DNA of 34,847 nt from Methanobacteriota archaeon (lineage in GTDB: Archaea > Thermoplasmatota > Poseidoniia > Poseidoniales > Poseidoniaceae): contig NZRR01000029.1 of the NCBI GenBank assembly GCA_002696315.1, positions 35,369-70,215 on the forward strand, written 5' to 3'. Made by a program: the position numbers and the translations under genes. Positions within the stretch are counted from its first letter, which is position 1. Each line of letters begins with the position of its first letter. The notes under the pieces are model-generated. The model saw nothing but the letters and a program-made list of their open reading frames with translations, had not been told where the DNA came from and made no database searches. Positions 530 through 9,534 of the stretch are shown one piece after another.

Positions 530-609
530 TAAATTGCAAATATTTTGTACGAACATTGTTCCATCAGTCTCATAAGGTATTTGAGTTGGTCAAGTTTTGT
601 CGGGTAGCC

Positions 610-616
610 GAGAGGT
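610..616 (+). promoter_or_regulatory. Shine-Dalgarno site that fixes the start at 624
   Basis: GAGAGGT lies 7 bases before ATG 624. It falls inside the longer frame that could open at TTG 597, and the signal peptide begins at the 624 codon, so 624 is preferred. Confidence 0.6.
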
Positions 617-623
617 AAGCAAG

Positions 624-3600
624 ATGCGTCGAAAACAAACCACCCTTATTGTCACTTCGATTATGATTTTTTCATTACTTACGATATCTCAACTACCTGC
701 AATTCAATCTGTAGAGAATGTACATCCAGAAGATGCTAATCAAGGACCTCCTCCAGTTACAGATACTGATAGAGACGGAATTCCAGATGTATGGGAACAA
801 CAATTCGGAAAATCATGGGAAGCTATTTCGATTGATGGAAGAAGTAAATTTATTCCGGGAATGGACTATACCAACGGTTCTGATGGTATTTATGATCCAG
901 ATGGCTCTTCTGGATTAATTTTAGATATGGATAATGATGGTTTGCAAAATGTAGAAGAGTATTGTTGGCCTTATGTTGTAGTAGATTGTTTTACAAATAG
1001 AACAGGCTTAACTGGTGCAGATCCTCTAGATCCAGAAGGTGGCTTTCGACTTTATTTAGATCCAACACATTCGGATACCGATGAAGATGGAATGCCTGAT
1101 GGATATGAGATTGAAATGTGTATGTCTAACGCTGGAGCAATTGTAGATGGAAGATGGGTTTGTCCCCTTTTTGATCCTTTGAATGGTTCCGATGGTGGTG
1201 AAGATTATGATGAGGATGGATTTGATATTGATAGGGATGGTAGTATTGAGTCAAATGAATATTACAATAATTCTGCGGAATATAATTTTGGAATCCCGCT
1301 AGAATGGATGACTGAATTGGATGGTTTGTGGTTTGGATACATGGAGGATGATGTAGATGAGAGATATACTTCCAGATGGAGAGGAACAGATCCGTTAAAT
1401 CCTGATAGTGATTTCTTTAGATGGTCTGAGATTGGGGGTCTTGAATACTCGCCAGGTGGAGACGAGATTCCTGATGGTTGGGAAGTATATTTTGGACTAG
1501 ATCCACACAATAAAAAGGATAATCTTGAAGATACTGACTCAGATGGTTGGGATTTGACGAATAATGGTGAAGTAACTAGAGATTTGACTACAGATATCGT
1601 GAATACATGTTTCGCAGGAGGCCTAATTGAGTGTGGTGGAGAAGCATTTAGTAATTTAGAAGAATATTTAGTTTCTGAAGATAATGGAGATTCTATTAGA
1701 GGCGGATTGAAAACAGTAGAAGAAGGTTCATTAAAAGACACATTGACGCTATATGATAAAACTACAGAAATTAAAATTTCAAGCCATGATGTTCGTGAAT
1801 TAGCTACATTTGAAGACGCTGAATCATCACTAGTATATGTTGGAACAAAAGTCGGTGTTTCTGTATTTAATATGGATGAATTAATTGTAGAGGATTTATT
1901 ATTACCAAATGGAGTCGAATTCAATGATATGGTTTTAGTCCAAAATGAATTTGGTAGAGGAGCAATAATTGTAGCAACTACAGATGGAATCTATAGTATG
2001 CTTCTCGATAAAGGAGGAGTTCTTAATGGACAAGTAGACCATTTAGATATAGGTCCTATGGATGTTGTAACAACTTTAGTCGAAACTGGAGGGGGCCAGA
2101 GAGTAATAACTATTGGTGAAGAATCTGGATATGTTTTTGAGATAAAGAATTCTGGAGAATTAAAAGAGTCATCTGAAGAGCCATTAGATGAGGGCTTATT
2201 TGATGAATTTAATTCAGTATCTGCTAATCCAACATCTGCAGTTCATGTATTGGTTAATGGTGAACCAACATTATTTTTAGGTACAGATAAAGGGCTAATA
2301 AAATCTGAAACCTCAGATGCTAAAGGTGTTTTAAATTTAGAATGGGTTTTCGATCAGTATAATACAAATAACCTTAGAAATTTGACTTATGAGCACGAAT
2401 TAAATCTATTCGAAGTAAGAACAATTGTTGCTGATGCATCTGTAAACTCTGAAATCAGTCATTTGTGGATTGGTACGGGCTCAGGAATACATTTATTGAC
2501 ACTCAGTAATAATCAATTAACTCATAGTGGGTCTTTAGAACATACCACTAGTGAAGATATGAATAATATCTTTTCAATACTACCTTTAGACAACTATGTT
2601 TTAGTTGGTTCACAAGGAGGTTCATGGAAATTAGTTGGAGGTGCATTAGCATCATTTAATCAAGGAGTACAAGAATCAATTACTGGGAGAGTAGTTTCAT
2701 TAGCTCAAATTGATTTAAACGGAACTGGATATTTGTTAGGTGCAGTTGACCCCGGAAGATTTGCAAATATTGCACTAATAGACCCAGGAAACAATGATTC
2801 TGATTTTGATGGTATTCCTGATGGTTGGGAATATGCTTATGCGCTAGATCCAACTGATCCAACTGATGCTTTATTAGATCAAGATGCAGATGGATTAAAT
2901 CTTGATGGAGAGCAGAATTCATTTTTTGAACAAGATTGGAACAATTTAGATGAATTTAGGTATCAACCTACAACAGAGTCAGGATATCCAAGTACTGACC
3001 CTAGAGATCCAGATACAGATGGAGATGGGATTAATGATGGTATGGAATTTTTTGGATTTTATTACGGATTAAGTGAATTTGATTGTCATTACATTGTTGA
3101 ACATCAGTATGTTTGTGACGAGAATAATGGTGCAGCAGATACATATTTGTTAAGTGGTGGTACCGACTCACCTTTAGATGCAACAAATAATGATACTGAC
3201 GGAGATGGAATGCCTGATGGTTGGGAAATAGAAAATAGAAGATGGGTTGGCACAACTTATACAGGCGGTAATAATTGGACTTTAGACCCTTTAAGGGCTG
3301 ATGATGCATTATGGGATGCTGATGGAGATGGATTAAGCAATATTTGTGAATTTGCTTGGGGCCAAATTTATTTAGAGGCTCTAGCAGGAAATTTATTAGA
3401 AACCTTGGGAGAATCAAGTGAATATGTAGAATCAGATTGGTCTACCCTAGATCCAAATAACATAGATAGCGATGGAGACACTTTACCTGATGGCTGGGAA
3501 GCTCTAGCGAATAATCCAAATGATCCAGATGGTAATTCATGTTATTGGAGTAGTGAGGTAAAGGGAATTAATCCGCTAAATGGTAGTGATGCTACAAATA

Positions 3601-6332
3601 ATCCAGATGGAGATGGTTTTGACGTTAATCATAACGGAATATTGGAACCCGATGAAGAATTTAATAACTATCTTGAATATCATATTAGAGATACATCTTT
3701 TATTGGACAAAATGATAGTGATAGTTCCTCATTACCATTTGGAATATTCACGCAATTATGGCAAAATACAGAGGATGCTGCTGAACCAGTATTCACCTTT
3801 GGTGAATTAACTAGTCCACTCTTATCAAATTCACAAAATGAACAAGATAAAGGTTCGGCAAATCCAATTTCTCCAGATTCAGATGGAGATGGAATGCCAG
3901 ATGGTTGGGAGATTTGGTATGCAAGATGGGATTTAGTTGCTAATGATTGGACCTTGAATCCACTTTCCGAAGGGGATAAGTTCGGAGATCCTGATTCTGA
4001 TGGATATTCTAATTGGGAAGAATATAATTCAATTAACCCAGAATTGAATGAAATACATTTGCAATTCTCACCTAAATATTATATCAAGCAATCAAATACA
4101 ATTAGTGGTTTTGATACTCAGGTATGGGGTAGAATTACTACAAACTTAAGTTTTGGATCATTTATTGATTCAAATATAAGCCAATTTTCAGGAATGACTT
4201 GTGATCCTAATAATCCAGATACTGATGGAGATGGGATGCTTGATGGATTAGAAATGCTACTGACAGATTGGAATTCAAATGATGGACTTTGGACATTAAA
4301 TCCATTAGTTGCTGGGGACGGAGATTATGACGCAGATAACGACGGGTTAACTGATAGGCAGGAATTATCTCTGGTAGAGGGTTTACCCGATAATGGCGTA
4401 TTTCATCCACCCGATGCTCCTATTTTCTATTTAGATGCTGAAGAACAAATGTCTGGAACAGAATTTTCAAGAGTTGGTAATATTCTTAATAATACAGAAA
4501 ACAGAGCCACATTAGTCAAATTAGATTTAATCGACTGGCAATCTGGAAATCCTCCTACATTAATTTTAGAAACTCTTCGTTCAATTACCGATCCAACACA
4601 CAATGATACAGATAGAGATGAAATGTTGGATGGATATGAATATTGGTTTACTGAATGGGATCTGGAAGAAAATCGTTGGTCCATGAATCCTTTGATAAGT
4701 AACGATATTTATCTTGATCTTGATGATGATTCATATGATTGTGATGGTGATGGTGAAATTGCAGTTTATGAAGTATATTCAAATTTAAGAGAATGGCAAG
4801 CTAGAACATATGGTAAAGAAGCAGAAAGATATAATGTTCCTTTAGAATTAGGATTCTATGATTATGCTACTGATGCAATTAATGCACTTTCAGAAGAAGA
4901 AGGACTTGACAATGAGCAAGCAAATAACCGTTTGTATGATTTATTCTCTGAAAAATTACATGACGGATTCCCAGTAACTCAAAATAGATTAGATAAAATT
5001 AATGAATTAAATGAAGATAATTTCAACAATAGTTTGATTGGTATTTCCGATCCAACTCATCCTGATTCAGACAGTGATGGAATGCCTGATGGCTGGGAAT
5101 ATTGCTATTCAACATTTATTTCAGAGCCAATTCCAGTTTCACGTGATGATAATATTTTCACAGTACAAAGTAGATGGGGATTGAATCCATTAAATCCATT
5201 AGATGGTGATTATGATATTGATAATGATGGATGGTATGATCGTTCAGTCGTAGATACTCCGGCTAAACAAGGTAAATGGAATAATCATATTTTTACAATT
5301 TCAGGTGGACAGTATGGTTTAGATAATGTCGATATTCCATTTACAAATTATATGGAATTTGATAATGGTACTTATCCACATTTGAATGATACAGATGATG
5401 ATAGTCAATCTAGAATTAGGGAGGGTACAGAAGAATTTACTCTTAATTATTATCAAGATTTTAGTCTTTCAGACGGACGAGAAATTTTGAAATATGGTAC
5501 AAATCCACTTGATAATGATACAGATTGGGATATGTTACCCGATTGGTATGAATATGCACTAGCATGGAACGAGTCACTAGATAATTTTTCTAGTCAAAGA
5601 TATATTTCTGTAGAATGGGTAGATGTTGGTGCCGAAGAAAGTATTCAGAAAAAACCATTGAAAATAGATGGTACAAACATAATGCGACCCGACTTATCAT
5701 TGGCTTGGTTTACTTTAGATCCTAGAGATCCAACAGACGCTTTGTTAGATCCCGATAATGATGGTGATTGGGATTGTAGTGGAGTTGTATGCGAATATAA
5801 TGAGTATTCCAATTTCCAAGAATTTTATGCAATTACTGATGATACTTATCGTTCAGCAACTTTAGTCCGATCTTTAGATCTGCAGTGGGATGGAGTTCAG
5901 ATTACCGAATGGTGGCAATTCAGAAAATGGTTATTACATTTGGGTGAAGCCGATGAGATGGAAAAAAATTATCTAAAAATGTACAAAAGAGACAGTCAGG
6001 ATTTAATGTATGCTAAAATAATTCAAGACAATGATAATGATTTCTTTGTAATGGATGCAGCAAATGACGAATCTATTTGCAGAGGAGATTGGACTGATAG
6101 TTATGGTTTAGTTTCTAGTACTACAGTTCTTCCAGACATAGGTCGCGGACAATATCCATTTGGTTGGTGGATTCTAGATATTGATGGAGACTTTACAGCA
6201 GAGGGTACTGACCCAACTAATTGGGATACTGATGGAGATTGGATGGTTGATTGGTATGAAGTACACAACGATGAAAATGACGGGGTAAGAGGAGATATTT
6301 CTGCAATTAGATATGATGATCGGACATTATGA
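624..6332 (+). CDS. Giant secreted calcium-binding repeat protein (TSP3-like) with beta-propeller insert
   Basis: A secreted protein of 1902 residues. The signal peptide is MRRKQ followed by a hydrophobic stretch to about residue 30. Two arrays of acidic repeats resembling thrombospondin type 3 or EF-hand loops make up most of it, with cores such as DTDGDGMPDGWEIEN and DSDSDGMPDGWEY. Each core is usually followed 50-100 residues later by LNPL and a second DxDxDG loop ending in an EEY-like motif. Residues ~370-720 lack these loops and instead show propeller-type strands (LVYVGTKVGV, IIVATTDGIY, LFLGTDKGL, LWIGTGSGIHLL, VLVGSQGG), which suggests a six- or seven-bladed beta-propeller. The last repeats are degenerate (DTDWDMLPDWYEY). 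Cysteines tend to come in close pairs, as expected of an exported protein. I see no C-terminal membrane anchor. Likely role: calcium-stabilised surface or extracellular scaffold or adhesin. It is followed after 9 bases by the next gene. The function is inferred. Confidence 0.9.
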   Translation: MRRKQTTLIVTSIMIFSLLTISQLPAIQSVENVHPEDANQGPPPVTDTDRDGIPDVWEQQFGKSWEAISIDGRSKFIPGMDYTNGSDGIYDPDGSSGLILDMDNDGLQNVEEYCWPYVVVDCFTNRTGLTGADPLDPEGGFRLYLDPTHSDTDEDGMPDGYEIEMCMSNAGAIVDGRWVCPLFDPLNGSDGGEDYDEDGFDIDRDGSIESNEYYNNSAEYNFGIPLEWMTELDGLWFGYMEDDVDERYTSRWRGTDPLNPDSDFFRWSEIGGLEYSPGGDEIPDGWEVYFGLDPHNKKDNLEDTDSDGWDLTNNGEVTRDLTTDIVNTCFAGGLIECGGEAFSNLEEYLVSEDNGDSIRGGLKTVEEGSLKDTLTLYDKTTEIKISSHDVRELATFEDAESSLVYVGTKVGVSVFNMDELIVEDLLLPNGVEFNDMVLVQNEFGRGAIIVATTDGIYSMLLDKGGVLNGQVDHLDIGPMDVVTTLVETGGGQRVITIGEESGYVFEIKNSGELKESSEEPLDEGLFDEFNSVSANPTSAVHVLVNGEPTLFLGTDKGLIKSETSDAKGVLNLEWVFDQYNTNNLRNLTYEHELNLFEVRTIVADASVNSEISHLWIGTGSGIHLLTLSNNQLTHSGSLEHTTSEDMNNIFSILPLDNYVLVGSQGGSWKLVGGALASFNQGVQESITGRVVSLAQIDLNGTGYLLGAVDPGRFANIALIDPGNNDSDFDGIPDGWEYAYALDPTDPTDALLDQDADGLNLDGEQNSFFEQDWNNLDEFRYQPTTESGYPSTDPRDPDTDGDGINDGMEFFGFYYGLSEFDCHYIVEHQYVCDENNGAADTYLLSGGTDSPLDATNNDTDGDGMPDGWEIENRRWVGTTYTGGNNWTLDPLRADDALWDADGDGLSNICEFAWGQIYLEALAGNLLETLGESSEYVESDWSTLDPNNIDSDGDTLPDGWEALANNPNDPDGNSCYWSSEVKGINPLNGSDATNNPDGDGFDVNHNGILEPDEEFNNYLEYHIRDTSFIGQNDSDSSSLPFGIFTQLWQNTEDAAEPVFTFGELTSPLLSNSQNEQDKGSANPISPDSDGDGMPDGWEIWYARWDLVANDWTLNPLSEGDKFGDPDSDGYSNWEEYNSINPELNEIHLQFSPKYYIKQSNTISGFDTQVWGRITTNLSFGSFIDSNISQFSGMTCDPNNPDTDGDGMLDGLEMLLTDWNSNDGLWTLNPLVAGDGDYDADNDGLTDRQELSLVEGLPDNGVFHPPDAPIFYLDAEEQMSGTEFSRVGNILNNTENRATLVKLDLIDWQSGNPPTLILETLRSITDPTHNDTDRDEMLDGYEYWFTEWDLEENRWSMNPLISNDIYLDLDDDSYDCDGDGEIAVYEVYSNLREWQARTYGKEAERYNVPLELGFYDYATDAINALSEEEGLDNEQANNRLYDLFSEKLHDGFPVTQNRLDKINELNEDNFNNSLIGISDPTHPDSDSDGMPDGWEYCYSTFISEPIPVSRDDNIFTVQSRWGLNPLNPLDGDYDIDNDGWYDRSVVDTPAKQGKWNNHIFTISGGQYGLDNVDIPFTNYMEFDNGTYPHLNDTDDDSQSRIREGTEEFTLNYYQDFSLSDGREILKYGTNPLDNDTDWDMLPDWYEYALAWNESLDNFSSQRYISVEWVDVGAEESIQKKPLKIDGTNIMRPDLSLAWFTLDPRDPTDALLDPDNDGDWDCSGVVCEYNEYSNFQEFYAITDDTYRSATLVRSLDLQWDGVQITEWWQFRKWLLHLGEADEMEKNYLKMYKRDSQDLMYAKIIQDNDNDFFVMDAANDESICRGDWTDSYGLVSSTTVLPDIGRGQYPFGWWILDIDGDFTAEGTDPTNWDTDGDWMVDWYEVHNDENDGVRGDISAIRYDDRTL

Positions 6333-6806: not shown

Positions 6807-7619
6807 ATGAAACTTAATATTTTTAAAAATACAAAAATTTTCAGCTATTTGTTATTTTTAGTTTTATTTTCAAGTTCTTTTTCGGGATGTTTTTCAAAAG
6901 AAGAGATACTTCCAGAGCCTTTTGGTGTGCCTGGCGGATTAGTTTTAGCTTGTTTAAATTCAACACACTTTACAGAACTTGTCATTGAAATTGATTATGA
7001 AGCAGATCAGAAACCAAGACCTGAAACCCTTGATTTATTAATTGAGCGAATAAATAGTGTATGTGACAAACAATCAGTATCTTATGAATTATCTTTGACA
7101 GATTTTGAACATGAAGGTGTTTGGACTAGTGATGACATCCGACTTAAAGGTAGAGAAACACGTGAAACAAATGCAATGAATGAAAATCAGCTAAGATTTC
7201 ATTTTATGTTTCCAAGTGGGACACATTCAGATAGCGGTGTATTGGGAGTTGCAGTAGATGCATCTACTGTAATGATTTTTGTTGATACCATAAAAGAAGC
7301 TGAAAATTTCATACAAAGACCTAGTTGGGAAGATATAGAAGCTGCAGTCACAGTTCATGAATTTGGGCATCTCGTTGGTTTGGTTAATTTAGTTTATACT
7401 TCAAATGTTGATCATGAAGATCCAGATCATCCAGGTCATAGTTCTAATGAGGATTCTGTTATGTATTGGGCAATAGAGTCTAGTGATATATCAAATATCA
7501 TTTTCGGAACCTTACCAAATGATTTCGATGATGATGATAGGGGTGATTTAATTAATCTAAATAACCAACAACTTCAAGCTCATGATCAATTATGGTATCC
7601 CGAGGATTACTCATATTAG
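6807..7619 (+). CDS. Lipoprotein with metzincin-like zinc protease motif
   Basis: A 270-residue lipoprotein. It has a basic N-terminus, a hydrophobic core at residues 12-25 and a lipobox ending SFSGC with the lipid-bearing cysteine at 28, so it should be tethered outside the membrane. A zinc-binding HEFGHLVG lies at 184-191, and SVMY at 217-220 looks like the Met-turn that closes the metzincin active site. The usual third ligand, ten residues after the first histidine, is Asn194. His203, His208 or His211, in the acidic stretch VDHEDPDHPGH, could take that role. The gene is third in a run with the giant repeat protein and the small helical protein, so processing of surface proteins is a reasonable guess. 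Its 3' end overlaps the convergent gene by 9 bases. Protease family membership is likely; the substrate is unknown. Confidence 0.85.
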   Translation: MKLNIFKNTKIFSYLLFLVLFSSSFSGCFSKEEILPEPFGVPGGLVLACLNSTHFTELVIEIDYEADQKPRPETLDLLIERINSVCDKQSVSYELSLTDFEHEGVWTSDDIRLKGRETRETNAMNENQLRFHFMFPSGTHSDSGVLGVAVDASTVMIFVDTIKEAENFIQRPSWEDIEAAVTVHEFGHLVGLVNLVYTSNVDHEDPDHPGHSSNEDSVMYWAIESSDISNIIFGTLPNDFDDDDRGDLINLNNQQLQAHDQLWYPEDYSY

Positions 7620-8020: not shown

Positions 8021-8055
8021 ACAATTCTATTCACTAGATGCACAAGGGCTTGTCA

Positions 8056-9042
8056 ATGAGGATACCAAAGGTTCTGGTAACTGGTTTTGAACCCTTTGAT
8101 AATTCTTCATTTAATATCTCACAGAAATTAGTTTCTGAAATAGAAAGTTTAGAATTTAATAATTTAGAAATGAATACAAAAATATTAACTGTTGATGAAG
8201 CAGGTTCAAAGAAAGTAAGCGAATTGATTTTAGTTGAAGATTTTGATTTCATTTTACATTTAGGATATAGTAATATGGCTCAAAAAATTCATTTAGAATC
8301 TAGAGCAGTAAATAAAATTAATATGAGAATAGAAGATAATTCCGGAAGAGAAATTAAAGAAGGATCTATAATCACAAAGGATACCGAAGAATATATTTCA
8401 ACAGTTGATTTTGGAATATTCTCTCAGTGTTTAAATGAAAATTTTTTAATTTCATCAGATGCTGGTACATTTGTTTGTAATGAAACATATTTTAGAACCT
8501 TAAATACAATTTATGAAACTAATATTCGTGATAGATTTAACAAACTTCTACCTTGTATGTTCGTACATTTACCTTCAGAAAACATTATTTCAATTTCAGA
8601 ACAACTTCAATTAGTTTTAGAGATATTAAATCTAGTTTCAGATAAAAAAATAATTGAGGTTGTTGCAGCAATCATTAGGAATGAACAAGGTGAAATTTTG
8701 GTTGCAAAAAGGGATTCTAATCAACCCCACCCAGGCAAATGGGAATTCCCTGGAGGAAAACTGGAAAAAAATGAAGATCAAATAGATGGTTTAAAAAGAG
8801 AAATTTTTGAAGAATTGAAGATAAATATTGAAATTTCATCATTTTGTGGTGAAGTACAACATTTGTATTCAGAATACTATGTGATTTTAAAAGCAATATA
8901 TGCTAAAATAACAAAGAACTCACCACCTATGGAATTAAATGTACATGATGAAGTTTTATGGGTGGAAGTAGAAAATTTGAGTAAATTTGATTGGTTAGAG
9001 GCAAATAAAAAATTAGTAAATATAATTCAAAACCAATCTTGA
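8056..9042 (+). CDS. Pyroglutamyl peptidase (C15) fused to a Nudix hydrolase
   Basis: A 328-residue two-domain protein. Residues 1-~195 match pyrrolidone-carboxylate peptidase, which removes N-terminal pyroglutamate. The opening is MRIPKVLVTGFEPFD, and the catalytic triad is visible: Glu81 in HLESRAVN, Cys141 in DAGTFVCN and His171 in MFVHLPS. Residues ~200-328 are a MutT-like Nudix domain (VVAAIIRNEQGEILVAKR, then HPGKWEFPGG) with a Nudix box at 234-256. All conserved acidic residues and the REIFEE core are there, but the glycine normally near the end of the box is Lys255. One open frame covers both domains, so this is a true fusion rather than neighbouring genes. ATG 8056 was chosen because family members start close to KVLVTGF; ATG 8038 would add six residues. 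Both enzymes should be cytosolic. A common pathway is not obvious. Confidence 0.88.
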   Translation: MRIPKVLVTGFEPFDNSSFNISQKLVSEIESLEFNNLEMNTKILTVDEAGSKKVSELILVEDFDFILHLGYSNMAQKIHLESRAVNKINMRIEDNSGREIKEGSIITKDTEEYISTVDFGIFSQCLNENFLISSDAGTFVCNETYFRTLNTIYETNIRDRFNKLLPCMFVHLPSENIISISEQLQLVLEILNLVSDKKIIEVVAAIIRNEQGEILVAKRDSNQPHPGKWEFPGGKLEKNEDQIDGLKREIFEELKINIEISSFCGEVQHLYSEYYVILKAIYAKITKNSPPMELNVHDEVLWVEVENLSKFDWLEANKKLVNIIQNQS

Positions 9043-9506
9043 GGGACGCCATCTCTTCTCATTTTTAATTCATCATCAACAGTTCTAGGGATTTCATCCC
9101 TTCCATGATGCCAAGTCATTTCTTCAATCCATGCAATAATATTTGTTGACTCAACCGTTAATTCAAAAAATCCACCTAAGGGGTATTCATTTTCTAAAAC
9201 AAAAGCAATTTTACCAGCTAAAGCAGCTTGACGTGAAATCTTAAAATAAGAAATGTCATTTTGAATATTTTGACTCATACAATCTAATGCTGTATCTGCA
9301 ATTTTATTCATATGTATTTTTTCAAAGAAGAATTCATAATCAATATCCTTGATATAAATGACTTCATTTTTTCCATGAATTGGAAAAGAGGTTTTATCTG
9401 TTATTTCAGCAATATTTGCATTTGGGAAAATTTCTTTAATAGCCATGATTACATTTTCCTTAGAGTCAACTGGACTCAATTTTGCTTCGAGATTCATTAT
9501 CGCCAT
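9027..9506 (-). CDS. UPF0201 family protein
   Basis: A 159-residue cytosolic protein that looks like the archaeal UPF0201 family (COG1931, of unknown function, suspected to bind RNA). Matching features are the opening AKLSPVDSKENVIMAIKEIF, where the family has a strand followed by xxVxxAIxNIFP, and ISRQAALAGKIAFV, which matches the family's conserved LNKQAAxxGxxxF segment. An acidic and aromatic C-terminal tail (TWHHGRDEIP, ending GVPQDWF) extends beyond the family core. ATG 9506 was chosen because a TATA box at 9535-9542 predicts transcription from about 9512; ATG 9518 would lie upstream of that, and ATG 9497 is also possible. The 3' end overlaps the convergent peptidase-Nudix gene by 16 bases. 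Confidence 0.7.
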   Translation of the reverse strand: MAIMNLEAKLSPVDSKENVIMAIKEIFPNANIAEITDKTSFPIHGKNEVIYIKDIDYEFFFEKIHMNKIADTALDCMSQNIQNDISYFKISRQAALAGKIAFVLENEYPLGGFFELTVESTNIIAWIEEMTWHHGRDEIPRTVDDELKMRRDGVPQDWF

Positions 9507-9534
9507 GGTCGTCTTCATGCTTAGACAAAAGGAA

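Follow-up and report, generated by a model that had tools for sequence, protein, structure and literature searches.

What would a peptidase and a nucleotide hydrolase do in the same polypeptide? The question is raised by one gene in a 34,847-nucleotide stretch of DNA (the window) from a member of the Poseidoniales, whose source assembly is archaeal and comprises 1.71 Mb in 59 contigs. Members of this order feed on proteins and rank with the most abundant archaea in surface seawater. A preliminary description, made from the sequence alone, had read a single frame as a family C15 (pyroglutamyl) peptidase joined to a Nudix domain, and both the reading frame and the Pfam matches bear this out. The frame runs uninterrupted from 8038 to 9042 on the forward strand, encoding 328 to 334 residues depending on the start chosen. 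Peptidase_C15 matches residues 11-179 with 67.3 bits (cut-off 22.7) and NUDIX (PF00293) matches residues 208-325 with 60.3 bits (cut-off 21.1). The gene likely starts at ATG 8056, since that is where conservation among congeners begins.

Table 1. Features of the fused gene, in window coordinates. Glu81, Cys141 and His171 are numbered from ATG 8056; the pocket and clade-specific residues cited in the text follow the 334-residue numbering.
Feature	Position	Strand	Remarks
Fused C15-Nudix gene (likely start)	8056..9042	+	328 aa plus stop; 6 aa longer if translation starts at the in-frame ATG 8038
Peptidase family C15 (pyroglutamyl peptidase I) domain	8068..8640	+	Residues 5-195; PF01470 E 2.5e-18; AlphaFold2 model against PCP structures
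Catalytic Glu81 codon	8296..8298	+	Invariant
Catalytic Cys141 codon	8476..8478	+	Invariant save one ambiguous residue
Catalytic His171 codon	8566..8568	+	Invariant
C15/Nudix junction, two residues	8641..8646	+	AlphaFold2 secondary structure; tails of C15-only proteins; linker lengths
MutT/NudG-type Nudix hydrolase domain	8647..9039	+	Residues 198-328; PF00293 E 2.6e-16; NCBIfam; PDB profile matches
Nudix box GKLEKNEDQIDGLKREIFEELKI	8755..8823	+	Metal-binding Glu and Arg residues invariant
Asn317 codon	9004..9006	+	Asp in most family members

An AlphaFold2 model built from a 65-row alignment (mean pLDDT 96.1, pTM 0.84) recovered the folds of both families. In this model the last C15 helix spans residues 180-195, and the first Nudix strand, two residues on, spans 198-208. 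The interdomain spacing is exactly 28 residues in 69 of 87 fused proteins. When the model was used as a Foldseek query, no chain among the PDB chains listed contained both domains.

In almost every Poseidoniales genome examined, the fused frame sits at one and the same conserved position. It is present at all but about 14 of 111 Poseidoniales (Marine Group II) loci, a few being cut by contig ends, and 57 of the 58 related genomes searched contain a match, most of them full length over both domains. The recurrence of the same frame at the same locus in dozens of independent genomes excludes an assembly join, and the orthologues in relatives are not separate genes; the fusion is therefore real. 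Its neighbours are shared across the order: one flank has a small, divergent membrane protein, and the opposite flank has a convergent protein with a weak match to the RNA-binding family PF01877, followed by DnaJ and others; a glycosyltransferase is also among the flanking genes. In the window the PF01877-like gene (9027-9518, weak PF01877/PRK00447 match) converges on the fused gene and overlaps its end, and a homologue is present at 108 of the 111 loci. Outside the genus, identity to the window protein is 27-40%. The C15 catalytic and Nudix metal-binding residues are constant across about 90-100 orthologues, apart from one ambiguous cysteine letter, and their retention in such strongly diverged proteins shows purifying selection on each of the two active sites. 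In one genome (G045, L142:5527-6987) the Nudix half is interrupted by an in-frame TAA, after which Nudix sequence resumes; either the gene is decaying or the stop is an error of sequencing.

Beyond the Poseidoniales, no C15-Nudix fusion was present in the collections searched. Among the matches listed for a full-length profile in two bacterial genome samples, which overlap, all were to a single domain. None of the plasmid or phage records matched over 80% of the query, and the matches in viral contigs were essentially Nudix-only. A peptide-pattern scan of genome contigs had a reach limited to close relatives. Elsewhere in the Thermoplasmatota, C15 is encoded by a gene of its own or is missing; it is missing from the sampled members of the class that lie outside the order. 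The domain order is thus rare and confined to the Poseidoniales within partial bacterial, plasmid, phage and viral samples. No paper found in the open-access literature describes a fusion of C15 and Nudix, and this is apparently a new domain architecture built from two known families.

The reading that we favor, with a probability of about 0.6, is that the protein would be a bifunctional cytoplasmic housekeeping enzyme that removes pyroglutamate (pGlu) from peptides and hydrolyzes damaged or modified (d)NTPs. Its C15 half would be a cysteine peptidase that uses Cys141, His171 and Glu81 to cut N-terminal pGlu off peptides. These three residues, noted as intact in the preliminary description, do not vary in the 65-row alignment, and the catalytic cysteine is present in 98 of 99 rows, the remaining row having an ambiguous X. 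Phe17, Phe20 and Phe145, which we take to be the aromatic positions of the pGlu pocket, are shared with canonical stand-alone C15 sequences, and the catalytic motifs of the fused clade agree with those of the stand-alone C15 proteins of the phylum. Foldseek matched the model to pyroglutamyl peptidases (6ltq and others) with E about 1e-15 and a target TM of about 0.8. The window protein thus has the fold, the Glu/Cys/His residues and the aromatic pocket positions in common with pyroglutamyl peptidase I (PF01470; Fervidobacterium 6ltq, Pyrococcus 1iof), but it bears an extra C-terminal Nudix domain and its C15 half, from a divergent clade, is about 18-27% identical to the solved structures by fold alignment. 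The Pfam C15 score is about 68 bits, compared with 100-240 for many relatives. With two models specific to pyroglutamyl-peptidase I the protein scores 60 bits (TIGR00504, cut-off about 202) and 78 bits (PRK13197, cut-off about 199). Judged by these profiles, it belongs to the C15 family without being assignable to the stricter models.

Because the C15 clade is divergent and has invariant residues of its own, its substrate may have shifted, as the preliminary description had suggested for one of the domains. The enzyme might then act on another N-terminal or free lactam or imide, with the Nudix half carrying out ordinary NTP cleaning. The features that distinguish the fused clade from stand-alone C15 proteins are Gly56, Arg104 and, mostly, Asp53, His74 and Asp141; Gly56, Arg104 and the Asp141 region are invariant here and not fixed in canonical enzymes, and a loop near residues 162-167 is missing from most canonical sequences. 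However, neither the catalytic residues nor the aromatic positions of the pocket have changed, and the model can be superposed on 5z48, a structure with bound pyroglutamate. A new substrate is therefore possible without being required, and we consider it unlikely.

In a C15 tree, made by a quick method with SH-aLRT support only, the sequences of the order cluster together, separate from stand-alone C15 proteins, with the C15-only forms branching at two positions within the fused ones. The tree shows that the fusion is ancestral in the Poseidoniales. On at least two occasions the Nudix half was cleanly deleted at the domain border, and the C15 enzyme that remained was catalytically intact. The C15-only proteins stop at about the domain border. 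Neither a Nudix remnant nor an adjacent Nudix ORF occurs downstream of their genes, and a splitting of the gene in these genomes was rejected on this ground. When the same genomes were searched for a relocated Nudix half, the matches were weak and fell on other Nudix proteins, and matches of this kind also occur in genomes with the fusion. In four further genomes the whole gene is gone, the neighbors adjoining with nothing between them. We found no locus at which the Nudix half was kept and the C15 half lost, contig ends being allowed for. This one-sided pattern of loss indicates that the Nudix half is dispensable and that the peptidase half can stand alone. Two loci have unusual frames. In G087 (L050:1486-2763) the stand-alone C15 frame encodes 426 residues, of which an extra N-terminal stretch may be non-coding, and in G006 (L179:1976-3094) a membrane-protein-like frame, possibly archaeosortase-like by eye, replaces the fusion next to the PF01877-like gene.

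The losses bear on whether the two halves are functionally coupled, either by acting in sequence or jointly on one class of damaged or modified metabolite or by one controlling the other. A nucleotide or peptidyl-nucleotide with a pyroglutamyl or lactam group would be an example of such a substrate. If the two active sites did form a metabolic unit of this kind, it would represent a repair or salvage route that has not yet been described. A single fused architecture with a nearly constant junction persists across most of the order, and both active sites are invariant, as coupling would lead one to expect. Against it, C15 has survived intact at least two losses of the Nudix half, the flanking genes (the small membrane protein, the PF01877-like protein, the glycosyltransferase and DnaJ) suggest no common substrate, and we know of no pathway joining pGlu removal and Nudix hydrolysis. 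Coupling is, in our estimation, quite improbable. The shared role proposed in the preliminary description is weakened by these clean losses and by the absence of the whole gene in four genomes, and a shared pathway is likewise weakened by the repeated separate loss of one half. Since some lineages have dropped the Nudix half, the two halves can exist apart. This speaks against a reaction for which both are obligatory, and they probably work independently.

The tether had a single origin, before the radiation of the order. In the bifunctional housekeeping enzyme that we favor, it would provide co-production and perhaps shared oligomerization, rather than the passing of a substrate between active sites. 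The long retention of one fused architecture counts against this explanation, in that it hints at more than convenience.

The Nudix half would hydrolyze damaged or modified (d)NTPs while tethered to the peptidase. Its Nudix box, G234-x5-E240-x7-R248-E249-x-x-E252-E253, is invariant, and the sole departure is the replacement of a late, weakly conserved Gly by Lys; the initial judgment of a nearly complete box was right. The closest profile matches in the PDB were 5x1x (MutT) and 3gwy and 2rrk (CTP pyrophosphohydrolase/Orf135), and Foldseek separately matched the model to structures of MutT, CTP pyrophosphohydrolase and BdRppH. The best NCBIfam match scored 99 bits, compared with at most 39 for two other Nudix proteins of the genome scanned, which makes the fused domain the most MutT/NudG-like found in its genome. 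Its scores are below the MutT/NudG equivalog cut-offs (TIGR00586, 68 against 97.9 bits; NF007834, 77 against 156 bits), so that by profile scores the domain is related to MutT/NudG without being a member by the equivalog rule. It shares the Nudix box, WEFPGGK and a C-terminal W..AD/AN motif with MutT/NudG (CTP pyrophosphohydrolase, Orf135), but differs in being joined to a peptidase, in having Lys for Gly near the end of the box, and in having Asp or Asn, according to lineage, at the position resembling MutT Asn119. Asn317 presumably occupies this position of E. coli MutT; the residue is Asp in 79 and Asn in 7 of 86 sequences, and the genus of the window has Asn. In the least probable alternative, the main substrate of the Nudix half would be RNA 5' ends or some other molecule that is not a dNTP (as with BdRppH), and the tether would be unrelated to pool cleaning. 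The presence of BdRppH structures among the close sequence and fold matches speaks for it. Against it, a MutT protein and CTP pyrophosphohydrolases head the profile matches, and MutT/NudG types head those in NCBIfam. Nudix specificity is not fixed by sequence alone, and NUDG and MUTT act mainly on noncanonical NTPs (PMC5158307).

Removal of pGlu would probably help to degrade the peptides on which these archaea feed; according to published work, the Poseidoniales have a proteolytic lifestyle and depend on amino acids from outside the cell (PMC6461757). The peptide salvage offered in the preliminary description fits this lifestyle. As a route through 5-oxoprolinase it was rejected: the PxpA subunit was found in none of the 38 genomes searched (that of the window and 37 relatives), and a hydantoinase-B type subunit was found in one (G005). 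These results speak against a complete salvage route for released pGlu, and they count against the favored explanation as well. Damage control, the other shared role suggested, is plausible if taken loosely, in that each half would have a housekeeping function.

Fusions of Nudix domains with thiamin enzymes (Tnr3/Nudix; NF006530, in which the partner is thiamine phosphate synthase) likewise join a Nudix domain to a metabolic enzyme. There the two halves serve a single pathway, whereas the partner here is a peptidase without a known link. The thiamin fusion is interpreted as damage pre-emption (PMC4921024, Table 4 and reference 13 therein).

In the Poseidoniales, a putative nucleotide-cleaning enzyme fused to a peptidase is carried by nearly a whole order, in an architecture undescribed in the open-access literature searched. 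Lineages with both halves, with the peptidase alone, or with neither constitute a natural experiment by which the value of the tether is testable.

Two other genes of the window have no Pfam match. One (597-6332) encodes a 1911-residue protein with many Asp-rich DxDxDG repeats. The other (6807-7619) encodes a lipoprotein-like protein of 270 residues with a metalloprotease-type motif, HEFGHLVGL, and has homologues at 44 of the 111 loci.
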